DNA of 64,000 bases, taken from contig NZ_CP100355.1 of the NCBI RefSeq assembly GCF_024204665.1, positions 186,001-250,000 on the forward strand. The letters are read 5' to 3'. The notes beneath the pieces were generated by a model. The model was not told the DNA's origin and made no database searches. It was given only the letters and a program-made list of their open reading frames with translations. Of the stretch, positions 40,498 through 43,833 are shown one piece after another. Numbering within the stretch: position 1 is the stretch's first letter; every line of letters starts with the position of its first letter. Source of the stretch: Natronosalvus rutilus. Lineage in GTDB: Archaea > Halobacteriota > Halobacteria > Halobacteriales > Natrialbaceae. Both the position numbers and the translations under genes were made by a program.

Positions 40498-41700
40498 TCA
40501 GTACGCGTCCCGAAGGACGGCCTCGATCTCGTCCGCCGTCGGCTCGAGTCCGGGCGGTGCGTTGCCCATGAACGAGTCCTCGAGGATCGCCTCGGCCACC
40601 GCGGGGAACTCCTCGGGTTCGGGGCCGTCGACGTCGCGCAACCGCGAGGGAAGGGCGAGCGCCTCGCGGACGTCCTCGACCGCCTCGACGACCGCCTCGG
40701 CCGGGTCGGCGTCGCGGTCAGGGGCGAGCGCGTCGGCCAGCAGGTCGCGCCGAGTGTCGACGGCATCGAACAGGTACCGGAGCACCCGCGGAGCCACGAT
40801 GGCGTGGGCGGCACCTTGCTGGACGTCGTAGGTGCGGGTCAACCCGTGGCCGAACGCGTGGATAATCGAGAGCGTCGTTTCCCCGGGTCTCGAGACGCCG
40901 TACTGGACGAGTGCGATGCCCTCGACGACCGGCTTCAGAAAGTCCTCGTCGATGGGCTGCTCGCCGAGGTCCACCAGTCCGTCACGGAGCAATCGCAGGC
41001 CGCGCATCGCCGTCGCGTCGGTGATCGGGGTCGCATTGCGGGCGTACAGCGTCTCGAGGCCCTTGTCGAAGCCGTTCATCGCGGACGCAGCGAGAATCGA
41101 TTTCGGCGTCGTCGCGAACAACGCCGGATCGTACACGACCGCCCGCGGCATCAGTCGCCGGTCGGAGACGCCGCCGCTCGCCGGTTCGTCGACCAATCCC
41201 GACTCGGGTGAGGCGGTGACGCCAGCCACGTTCGACTGCTCGGCGCCGGCGAGCGTCGTCGGCACCGCAACGATCGGCGGCAGCGAGCCGTCGGGGACCG
41301 AGATCGAACCGGTTTCGGCGAGTTCTCGGCCGGCCTCGGCGGGGTCGCGGTCATCCGCGGCCAGGACGGCGATCACCGTCGCCACGTCGAGACTGCTACC
41401 GCCGCCCAGGCCGACGAGGACGTCCGCGTCGACCGCGCGCATCGCCTCGAGGCCGTCGACAGCCGTCGACAGACGCTTGCTCGCGGTCGTCTCCGCGAAG
41501 ACGCCAGCCAGCCGCTCTCCCAGTCCCCGCTTGACGGGGTCGATCACCTCGGGCGTACTGCCCACCGTCGACCCGCAGACGACCAGCGCACGGTCGAACC
41601 CCTGCTCGACGAGTTCGTCCGACAGGGTGTCGACAGAGCCCGTGCCGAACCGCAGCACCCCCGGCTCGTACTCGAACCGAAACTGATCGTCGCGCGCCAC
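40498..41700 (-). CDS. Iron-containing-alcohol-dehydrogenase fold protein with degenerate metal site
   Basis: 400 residues. The Rossmann GGGSSLDVAT lies at 99-108 and the PTTLAGAEQSN segment near 147, then AASAMNGFDKGLETLYARN near 205, best matching maleylacetate reductases. Of the four metal ligands of FucO-type enzymes, only the third is conserved: aligned positions are N209 (for Asp), K213 (for His), H281 (kept) and Q295 (for His). It starts at GTG 41700, just after the stop of the dioxygenase gene. Likely NAD(P)-dependent reduction, perhaps metal-free (inference). Confidence 0.85.
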   Translation of the reverse strand: MARDDQFRFEYEPGVLRFGTGSVDTLSDELVEQGFDRALVVCGSTVGSTPEVIDPVKRGLGERLAGVFAETTASKRLSTAVDGLEAMRAVDADVLVGLGGGSSLDVATVIAVLAADDRDPAEAGRELAETGSISVPDGSLPPIVAVPTTLAGAEQSNVAGVTASPESGLVDEPASGGVSDRRLMPRAVVYDPALFATTPKSILAASAMNGFDKGLETLYARNATPITDATAMRGLRLLRDGLVDLGEQPIDEDFLKPVVEGIALVQYGVSRPGETTLSIIHAFGHGLTRTYDVQQGAAHAIVAPRVLRYLFDAVDTRRDLLADALAPDRDADPAEAVVEAVEDVREALALPSRLRDVDGPEPEEFPAVAEAILEDSFMGNAPPGLEPTADEIEAVLRDAY

Positions 41701-41701
41701 G

Positions 41702-42673
41702 TCAGTTCGCCCCCGTCCCGAACCCGATCGTCTCGGGGTCGAACTCGGGAAGCTGTGCCTCGATCCGGTCGCGTTCGTCCTCGATCCACTCCGGGAGCAT
41801 CAGTCCCGATCCCAGGTCGTCGACGTCCTCGTCGACGGTGAATCCTGGTTCCGTCGTCGCCATCTCGAAGAGGACGCCGCCGGGTTCGCGGGAGTAGACC
41901 GAGCGGAAGTACATGCGATCGATAATCTCGGTCGCGTTCAGTCCGTGATCGGCGAACGCCTCCCGCCAGCGCTCCTGTTCATCGAGGTCGGCCGCCTCGA
42001 ACGCGACGTGGTGGACGGTGCCGACGCCCATCTGCCCGCGCCCCACGTCGGTCTCGACGAGGTCGACGATCGAGACGGGGCCGCCGCCCGCCGCGCGGTA
42101 GCGCCGGCGCCCGTCCGCTTCGGCCTCGAGTTCGAATCCGAGGACGTCCGTGAGGACCGACGCGGTCGGCCCGAACGCCGAGACGGCGAGCGTGACGCTG
42201 TGGAACCCGCGAGCCTGGTACTCCGCCGGAACGGGGCTCTCCGGCCACGGCTGCGCATCGGCCTCGAGCGCCTGTTCTGAGGCGACGAACTCGAGACCGA
42301 TCCCGTCCGGGTCGTCGAATCCCAGGACCGGCTCGCCGAACCGTTCGTCCCGGTCGACTTCGATTCCCGCCGACTCGAGTCGGTCGATCCAGTACTCGAC
42401 CGAGTCGGGGGGGATCAGGTAGGCGGTCTCCCGGGTCTGCCCCGCGCCGAACTGGCCCCGTCGGCCACTATTGGTCCAGGGGAAGAACGTAACGTTCGTC
42501 CCGGGCGTTCCCTCGCCGTCGCCGAAGTAGAAGTGGTACGTGCCCGTGTCATCGTGGTTGACCGTCCGCTTGACGAACCGCAGCCCCAGCGTCTCGACGT
42601 AGAACTCGGCGTTTCGTTGCGGATCGCCCGCGATGGCGGTCACGTGGTGAATTCCCGGCGTGGTTGGTGACAT
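41702..42673 (-). CDS. VOC-family ring-cleaving dioxygenase (PcpA/LinE-like)
   Basis: 323 residues made of two vicinal-oxygen-chelate modules. The opening GIHHVTAIAGDPQRNAEFY, then TYHFYFGD and TFFPW, are those of hydroquinone/chlorohydroquinone 1,2-dioxygenases and MhqO. Iron ligands are the first His pair (H9/H10 region), VHHVAFEA near 215, and GVLFEMATTEPGF (Glu) near 270. It would open a dihydroxylated ring between hydroxyl and neighbouring carbon. Its stop abuts the GTG start of the Fe-ADH-fold gene, giving a coupled operon. Start ATG 42673. Confidence 0.88.
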   Translation of the reverse strand: MSPTTPGIHHVTAIAGDPQRNAEFYVETLGLRFVKRTVNHDDTGTYHFYFGDGEGTPGTNVTFFPWTNSGRRGQFGAGQTRETAYLIPPDSVEYWIDRLESAGIEVDRDERFGEPVLGFDDPDGIGLEFVASEQALEADAQPWPESPVPAEYQARGFHSVTLAVSAFGPTASVLTDVLGFELEAEADGRRRYRAAGGGPVSIVDLVETDVGRGQMGVGTVHHVAFEAADLDEQERWREAFADHGLNATEIIDRMYFRSVYSREPGGVLFEMATTEPGFTVDEDVDDLGSGLMLPEWIEDERDRIEAQLPEFDPETIGFGTGAN

Positions 42674-42802: not shown

Positions 42803-42994
42803 ATGACCTGCCCGTACCTGGAGTACCACGATGAGGCCGACGGTCGACAGTTCGACCAGCCGCGGGCGTACTGCACCGCCGCCGAGCGGTTCGTCCAGCC
42901 GATGCGCGCCGACATCTGCAACGACCGGTACGCCCTCGAGCACGAGGCCCACTGCGAGATCTACCACGAGCACGCCGAGGTGCCGGAGCCGTGA
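42803..42994 (+). CDS. Small four-cysteine protein coupled to BKACE
   Basis: 63 residues: C3, C24, C39 and C51 are the only Cys, with several His nearby (EHEAHCEIYHEHAE). This is compatible with a small zinc or metal site. It overlaps the next gene by 4 bases (GTGA), so translation is coupled. No known function. It may be a metallochaperone or zinc-ribbon partner of the downstream enzyme (inference). Confidence 0.72.
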   Translation: MTCPYLEYHDEADGRQFDQPRAYCTAAERFVQPMRADICNDRYALEHEAHCEIYHEHAEVPEP

Positions 42995-43833
42995 GCTACG
43001 CGGACTACCTCGCTGGCGAGCCGCTGATCGTCACCGCGGCGCTGACCGGCGGTGTCCACGGCAAGGAGGCCAACCCGAATCTCCCGGAGACACCCGAAGA
43101 GATCGGTCGCGCCGCCGCGGCTGCCGAAGAGGCGGGCGCCGCCGTAGTCCACCTCCACGCCCGGAAACCGAACGGCGAGCGCTCGTTTTCCACCGAGCGG
43201 TTCCAAGCCATCGATGACGCGGTGCGAGCGCACGCCGATAACGTCGTCGTCCAGCACTCCACGGGCGGGACTGGCGCCCCGGCCGCGGACCGCCGCCTCC
43301 CACTTCGCACTGACCCGTCGCCGGAGATGGCGTCGCTCGATATGGGGCCGCTCAACCGGTACGACCACCTGACGAGCGAGAACACGCGCGGCACGGTCGA
43401 CGCCCTCCACGAAGAGATGCGCGACCGCGGGATCAAACCGGAACTCGAGGTGTTCAACGACGGCCACCTCAACGAGGTCCACGGCCTGCTCGAGCGTCGC
43501 GATCTCGCCGATCCGGTGTACACGACGCTCATCTTCGGCGGCGGCACGCTCACGCGCCCCCGACCGCGAAACCTGTTGAACGCCGTCTCCAATCTCCCCG
43601 ACCGCGCGCTGTTCAACACGCTCGGGTTCGGCCGCCACCAACTGCCGCTCACGACGATGGGGATTCTCCTCGGCGGACACGTCCGGGTCGGCCTCGAGGA
43701 CAACGTCTACTACCGACAGGGCGAACTTGCGACGAGCAACGCCCAGCTGGTCGAGCGGGTCGTCCGCATCGCTGGGGAACTCGAGCGGGAGGTCGCGACG
43801 CCGGCGCAAGCACGGGAGATTCTCGGGTTGTAG
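42991..43833 (+). CDS. BKACE: beta-keto acid cleavage enzyme (DUF849)
   Basis: 280 residues. A zinc-dependent TIM-barrel that condenses a beta-keto acid with acetyl-CoA, cleaving it (the prototype is 3-keto-5-aminohexanoate cleavage enzyme of lysine fermentation). Signature: LIVTAALTGG near 12, HLHARKPNG near 54, VVQHSTGGTG near 86, and PELEVFNDGHLNEV near 150. The His pair HLH and Glu bind zinc. Start GTG 42991, overlapping the small Cys protein. The family has many keto-acid substrates, so the exact one is open. Confidence 0.9.
   Translation: MSYADYLAGEPLIVTAALTGGVHGKEANPNLPETPEEIGRAAAAAEEAGAAVVHLHARKPNGERSFSTERFQAIDDAVRAHADNVVVQHSTGGTGAPAADRRLPLRTDPSPEMASLDMGPLNRYDHLTSENTRGTVDALHEEMRDRGIKPELEVFNDGHLNEVHGLLERRDLADPVYTTLIFGGGTLTRPRPRNLLNAVSNLPDRALFNTLGFGRHQLPLTTMGILLGGHVRVGLEDNVYYRQGELATSNAQLVERVVRIAGELEREVATPAQAREILGL

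Follow-up and report, generated by a model that had tools for sequence, protein, structure and literature searches.

The window, a stretch of 64,000 nucleotides from Natronosalvus rutilus (contig NZ_CP100355.1, positions 186,001 to 250,000), carries at one locus the genes of a ring-cleaving dioxygenase, of a maleylacetate reductase (MAR)-like protein with the fold of the iron-containing alcohol dehydrogenases (Fe-ADH), and of a beta-keto acid cleavage enzyme (BKACE). Their coordinates, and those of the metal-site codons, are listed in Table 1.

Table 1. Genes and metal-site codons at the locus, in positions of the window
Feature	Position	Strand	Remarks
MAR-like Fe-ADH-fold protein gene	40498..41700	-	400 aa, from the GTG at 41700 to the stop at 40498; metal-site residues N/K/H/Q
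MhqO/PcpA-type (VOC fold) ring-cleaving dioxygenase	41702..42673	-	its stop and the GTG of the reductase are one base apart
BKACE, beta-keto acid cleavage enzyme (PF05853)	42991..43833	+	divergent from the dioxygenase
K75 codon	41476..41478	-	second family-specific lysine, 91/91 relatives
N209 codon	41074..41076	-	aligns with FucO Asp196; bacterial MARs have Asn here too
K213 codon	41062..41064	-	FucO His200 and PcpE His172 position
H281 codon	40858..40860	-	FucO His263 and PcpE His237 position; single ligand retained
Q295 codon	40816..40818	-	FucO His277 and PcpE His251 position

The reductase scores 89 bits with the Pfam model Fe-ADH and 71 bits with ADH_Fe_C, in both cases above the cut-off, and has the two domains (PF00465 and PF25137), the fold and the GGGS nucleotide motif of the Fe-ADH superfamily; none of the NCBIfam models reaches its cut-off with it. 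The GGGSS nucleotide-binding motif is unbroken, as the first-pass annotation had stated. In an AlphaFold2 run covering 64 proteins of the window and of the relatives' loci, the reductase was modelled with a pLDDT of 93.8 and a pTM of 0.91. A Foldseek search of the PDB with this model ranks 3hl0 and 3jzd as the top two; both are listed as MARs, the latter as HxqD (PMC5125639). With VIA-align, the model superimposes on 1,3-propanediol oxidoreductase (Z 49.1, rmsd 2.0, 375 residues aligned), FucO (Z 47.3, rmsd 2.3, 375 aligned) and 3jzd (Z 43.2, rmsd 2.0, 348 aligned), the last showing the highest identity, 29%, among 50 structural alignments. Canonical ADHs reach DALI-like Z-scores of 49-47, above the 43-41 of the MARs, the chains of which are shorter. 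The predicted structure makes the Fe-ADH fold of the reductase certain, but the fold by itself does not separate MAR from ADH, and absence from the fold matches was not taken to exclude any family. The sole other relative found in the genome of the window (L002, G000:C2:99226-100371) has Asp/Gln/His/His at the metal site, with Gln at the second ligand position, where its near relative L184 has His.

Metal-site residues and their conservation

The phmmer alignments of the reductase with Zymomonas ADH2 (3owo), 1,3-propanediol oxidoreductase (3bfj) and Escherichia coli FucO are gap-free across both metal-site helices and pair the four FucO ligands with N209, K213, H281 and Q295, as given in Table 1 (the start choice of NCBI puts the FucO residue numbers one lower). 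A MAFFT alignment of the relatives' loci with FucO places the same residues in the same columns. Thus, the Asp-His-His-His ligand set of the canonical group III ADHs reads N/K/H/Q in this protein, and the replacement of three of the four ligands, which the first-pass annotation had proposed from an alignment by eye, is borne out by both methods.

This residue set is not peculiar to the window. It was followed in 91 distinct haloarchaeal relatives, which were taken from whole-protein or whole-profile searches (the 30 best and 40 chosen lower rows of one search, and 21 rows of another) out of about 194 genomes of the class with the gene, a few of which contribute two copies. The identity of these relatives to the window protein ranges over 34-100% (median 50%). 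All 91 have N209, 90 have K213, 90 have H281 and 89 have Q295; in addition, K75 is present in 91/91 and H299 in 90/91. One of the cases without H281 and one of those without Q295 are due to L178, a gene broken in two that was retained in the set. The conservation of N/K/H/Q, the check that had been suggested for haloarchaeal homologues, therefore exceeds chance and is not isolated decay. The single exception at K213, L144, which branches first within the family, carries His at this position; since it already has K75, Q295 and H299, it suggests that the lysine at position 213 came last. R271 was also considered as an invariant residue, but it is invariant in the closest 22 relatives and not in the set of 91.

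Of 292 genomes sampled from the class, 192 have the family gene at E <= 1e-80, a number obtained by subtracting 31 weaker rows, tallied by hand, from 223 genomes with any match; two of the weaker rows, G202 and G288, are also family members. Across 392 sampled genomes of the phylum, every full-length match to the family, with an E-value of 1e-116 or lower, lies within the class, and the best match outside it has an E-value of 4.6e-42. A pattern scan of named genomes yielded 162 loci, of which the 80 that were kept are all haloarchaeal by title; the conservation of N and K in these 80 loci was set aside, because MNGFDKG was one of the two search patterns. Among the 60 matches listed for 388 plasmid records with a match, the bacterial ones are at most 34% identical. 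A divergent relative on plasmid pMTS1 of Cupriavidus sp. P-10 (L198) has Arg at the position of the ligand Asp (IRAIDHAVE), which, besides Asn, is the replacement reported in metal-free members. The family gene also occurs in broken form, at G202:C3:531412-532579, where it is split across two frames, and at G265:C1:48623-49450, where it is partial and contains an internal TGA.

Alignment to PcpE, with the numbering checked against 3w5s, places K213 and A282 at the positions of His172 and Lys238, and H281, H285 and Q295 at those of H237, H241 and H251. Mutation of either His172 or Lys238 is reported to abolish the activity of PcpE, while the H237A, H241A and H251A mutants are described as remaining active (PMC5741723). 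Of the traits of the MAR subfamily (cd08177), the change of the ligand Asp to Asn or Arg is seen in the family, in which N209 is invariant, whereas the essential pair is absent. The earlier remark that the core MAR phrases are intact points in the right direction, but the signature LHHKLCHTLGG is missing and IIHAFGHGLTR stands in its place. Because both residues essential in PcpE are missing, the family is called MAR-like and not MAR. Its profile gives higher scores to the FucO and methanol dehydrogenase chains (130-135 bits) than to the MARs (at most 121 bits).

The family forms a single clade in both of two trees (100/99 and 100/100), the second of which was computed without the long branches Cupri_P10 and HALOFE_L185 and up to six family rows, and with long rows trimmed. 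The sister group is also haloarchaeal and carries N/H/H/H at the metal site (97/91, together with one divergent plasmid row, and 80/91). In the best tree rooted with E. coli GldA (glycerol dehydrogenase), an outgroup with a very long branch, one branch (79/99) has the MARs on the same side as both haloarchaeal groups. A p-AU of 0.036 weakly rejects a union of the family with the canonical ADHs, but a union of the MARs with the canonical ADHs is not rejected (p-AU 0.165), so that the change from Asp to Asn may have happened once or twice.

The first-pass annotation had left two options for the rearranged site, catalysis without metal or a metal site that has moved. FucO, two bacterial MARs and four other haloarchaeal relatives served as the reference for the residues kept in at least 95% of the 91 relatives. 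Those specific to the family are K75, K213, Q266 and Q295, and in part T71 and T198. No new invariant Asp, Glu or Cys was found among the 91 relatives, the only His being H299, which the MARs also have; the retained acids D191, E216 and D228 also occur in other members of the superfamily. A metal-free enzyme is therefore favoured as the simplest reading, since no new invariant set of Asp, Glu, His or Cys is available to host a metal. A divalent metal could have moved to H281, H285, H299 and another residue, given that three histidines lie in this stretch and that H281 and H299 are nearly invariant. This is nevertheless improbable, because H285 is replaced by Gln or Asn in 7 of the 91 relatives, an invariant family-specific Asp, Glu or Cys is missing, and the same three histidines are present in bacterial MARs reported to be metal-free. 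That the protein is misaligned, or is an ordinary Fe-ADH that holds iron in the usual site, would fit with an overall similarity to FucO-type enzymes that equals the similarity to MARs; it is the least probable reading of all, as phmmer, MAFFT and profile searches agree on a gap-free alignment in which Lys and Gln occupy two ligand places. An alternative alignment that puts Asp and three His at the site was sought and was not found, D212, the sole Asp near the site, being Asn in 9 of the 91 relatives and H285 being variable as well. Of the two options for the rearranged site, that of a metal-free enzyme is thus well supported, whereas that of a moved site lacks an alternative set of invariant ligands. 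Loss of the metal in the Fe-ADH fold is already known from the MARs, a precedent that the earlier annotation had left unweighed: MARs are reported to be active without metal, with Asn or Arg in place of the ligand Asp (PMC5125639). What is unusual is that the counterparts of FucO His200 and His277 are lost as well, in a class-wide haloarchaeal family with fixed lysines of its own, K75 and K213. The N/K/H/Q set is a genuine rearrangement of a known metal site and is strictly conserved in this MAR-like family.

Gene neighbourhood

The dioxygenase matches 3oaj (E 5.6e-80) and PcpA (4huz, E 1.9e-52). Its residues H10, H222 and E270 align with H11, H227 and E276 of PcpA, which we take to be the iron-binding residues, and the H/H/E site is kept. 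The BKACE neighbour scores 298 bits with PF05853 (cut-off 24.8). It misses the cut-offs of the BKACE specificity models; the model for 3-oxoadipate (NF053568) gives 206 bits, below the equivalog cut-off of 350.

Orthologs of the dioxygenase, defined by at least 66% identity (the next group of full-length matches lies at 58% or less), are present in 35 of the 292 class genomes. The family gene is found in 33 of these genomes, within 3.4 kb of the dioxygenase gene in 30 and within 200 bp in 21, and in all 30 linked genomes the dioxygenase lies upstream on the same strand. With random placement, a distance within 5 kb would be expected in about 0.3% of cases per genome, a figure that the relatedness of the genomes makes less extreme. 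The dioxygenase-reductase pairs span six families of the class (f1, f2, f3, f4, f7 and f8). BKACE (at least 76% identity) occurs in 56 genomes, and in 26 of them no more than 5 kb separates it from the family gene. A dioxygenase lies within 6 kb in 37 and a BKACE in 27 of the 80 named loci. On the other hand, the linked dioxygenase ortholog is missing from about 159 of the 192 genomes of the class that have the family gene. MhqO-type paralogues, 41-61% alike, recur near the family gene in other positions. In 39 examined loci with neither a dioxygenase nor a BKACE linked to the gene, such neighbours as could be sorted into groups are unrelated (QueC, MoeA and a ribosomal protein, by sequence) and likely reflect local synteny. 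The N/K/H/Q set is identical in dioxygenase-linked and unlinked members. A bacterial parallel is seen in Cupriavidus, where a VOC-family gene lies two genes upstream of the MAR gene.

Several loci deviate from this arrangement. In G224 (C1:2841148-2842095) and G246 (C1:97941-98876) a dioxygenase ortholog (71-76%) is present and the family gene was not found; another reductase may serve there. The dioxygenase gene contains frame shifts in Halobacterium sp. CBA1126 (L042) and H. bonnevillei (L046). An apparent fusion of dioxygenase and reductase in L042 was rejected, as the end of the dioxygenase is out of frame and a base error is likelier. A PanE/ApbA-type ketopantoate-reductase-like gene, assigned with a Pfam check on L048 only, lies between dioxygenase and reductase in L048 and L091 and before the reductase in L043; a gap of the same size in L045 suggests such a gene there as well. 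In Natronococcus sp. A-GB7 an OsmC-like gene (L087:4249-4812) lies between BKACE and dioxygenase.

Proposed function

The gene context supports a MAR-like job for the reductase. We propose, with a probability of roughly 0.55, that it is a metal-free, NAD(P)H-dependent MAR-like reductase acting in a chain from dioxygenase through reductase to BKACE. In such a chain the MhqO/PcpA-type dioxygenase would cleave a hydroquinone-like ring to an unsaturated keto-diacid, the reductase would reduce the C=C bond of this compound with a hydride taken from NAD(P)H to yield a beta-keto acid of the 3-oxoadipate type, and BKACE would convert the latter with acetyl-CoA to acetoacetate and a thioester of the succinyl-CoA type. 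The conversion of 3-oxoadipate and acetyl-CoA to acetoacetate and succinyl-CoA is a reaction of the BKACE type, and BKACE would perhaps stand in for a CoA transferase and a thiolase. Since no intradiol dioxygenase (PF00775) was found in the genome of the window, the MhqO-type enzyme is the likelier source of the substrate. Plain hydroquinone as the starting compound would require an additional aldehyde oxidation; no aldehyde dehydrogenase gene was seen beside the dioxygenase, reductase and BKACE genes. In the active site, K213 at the former place of the iron, held by N209 and Q295, would probably bind the substrate through its positive charge and stabilise the enolate, while the carboxylates could be bound by H281, H299 and perhaps K75. 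A more far-reaching version is put forward tentatively. It holds that throughout this class-wide haloarchaeal family lysine replaces the catalytic metal, the ammonium group of K213 doing the electrostatic work of the cation without the Lys282 of MARs, and that the enzyme forms the middle step of a single cluster leading from hydroquinone-type rings via 3-oxoadipate to acetoacetate and succinyl-CoA.

The absence of both PcpE-essential residues, the lack of the linked dioxygenase ortholog in most genomes with the gene, and the unrelated neighbours in the 39 loci would also fit a metal-free reductase of another anionic unsaturated or keto acid, for which the link to the dioxygenase is one of several uses. 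This possibility deserves attention but is doubtful, as linked and unlinked members share one residue set and differing MhqO-type paralogues (41-61% identity) recur nearby. The loss of the metal site could also point to a non-catalytic, regulatory or structural relative, like ErcA as annotated in NCBIfam, the model of which gives 102.7 bits against a cut-off of 550; such a role is hard to reconcile with the retained GGGSS motif, the invariant active-site set with two new lysines and the linkage to genes of two metabolic enzymes, and has little probability.

If the proposed metal-free MAR-like reductase is correct, a metalloenzyme fold would have swapped its metal for a lysine stepwise, with living intermediates D/H/H/H, N/H/H/H, N/H/H/Q and N/K/H/Q. 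A function would also be assigned to a protein that in Halomontanus bears no more specific name than 'iron-containing alcohol dehydrogenase family protein', probably a misnomer as far as the iron is concerned, and a haloarchaeal pathway for aromatic rings would emerge in outline. No description of a haloarchaeal maleylacetate reductase was found in the literature searched.

Comparison with known systems

With canonical iron ADHs (FucO, ZmADH2 and B. methanolicus MDH) the family shares the fold, the GGGS motif, E216, D191 and a similar length, but three of the four ligands are replaced in at least 89 of its 91 relatives. The haloarchaeal N/H/H/H group (L176, L177, L179 and L180) likewise has Asn for Asp, but keeps all three His and has neither K75 nor H299; within 5 kb of its genes, neither a dioxygenase nor a BKACE of the window type was found. 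Bacterial MARs (PcpE, GraC (3w5s), 3hl0, HxqD (3jzd) and 3iv7) resemble the family in the Fe-ADH fold, in Asn for the ligand Asp, in the His pair of the second helix (H281 and H285) together with H299, and in a gene close to that of a ring-cleaving dioxygenase. They differ in having His at positions 213 and 295 and Lys at 282, where the family has Lys, Gln and Ala, respectively; in addition, the family has the extra invariant K75 and is about 45 residues longer.

At the level of gene organization, PcpA-PcpE and LinE-LinF are known pairs of a dioxygenase and a MAR. The haloarchaeal set shares with them the adjacent genes of dioxygenase and reductase and the H/H/E site of the dioxygenase, but it adds a BKACE, and the active site of its reductase is different.
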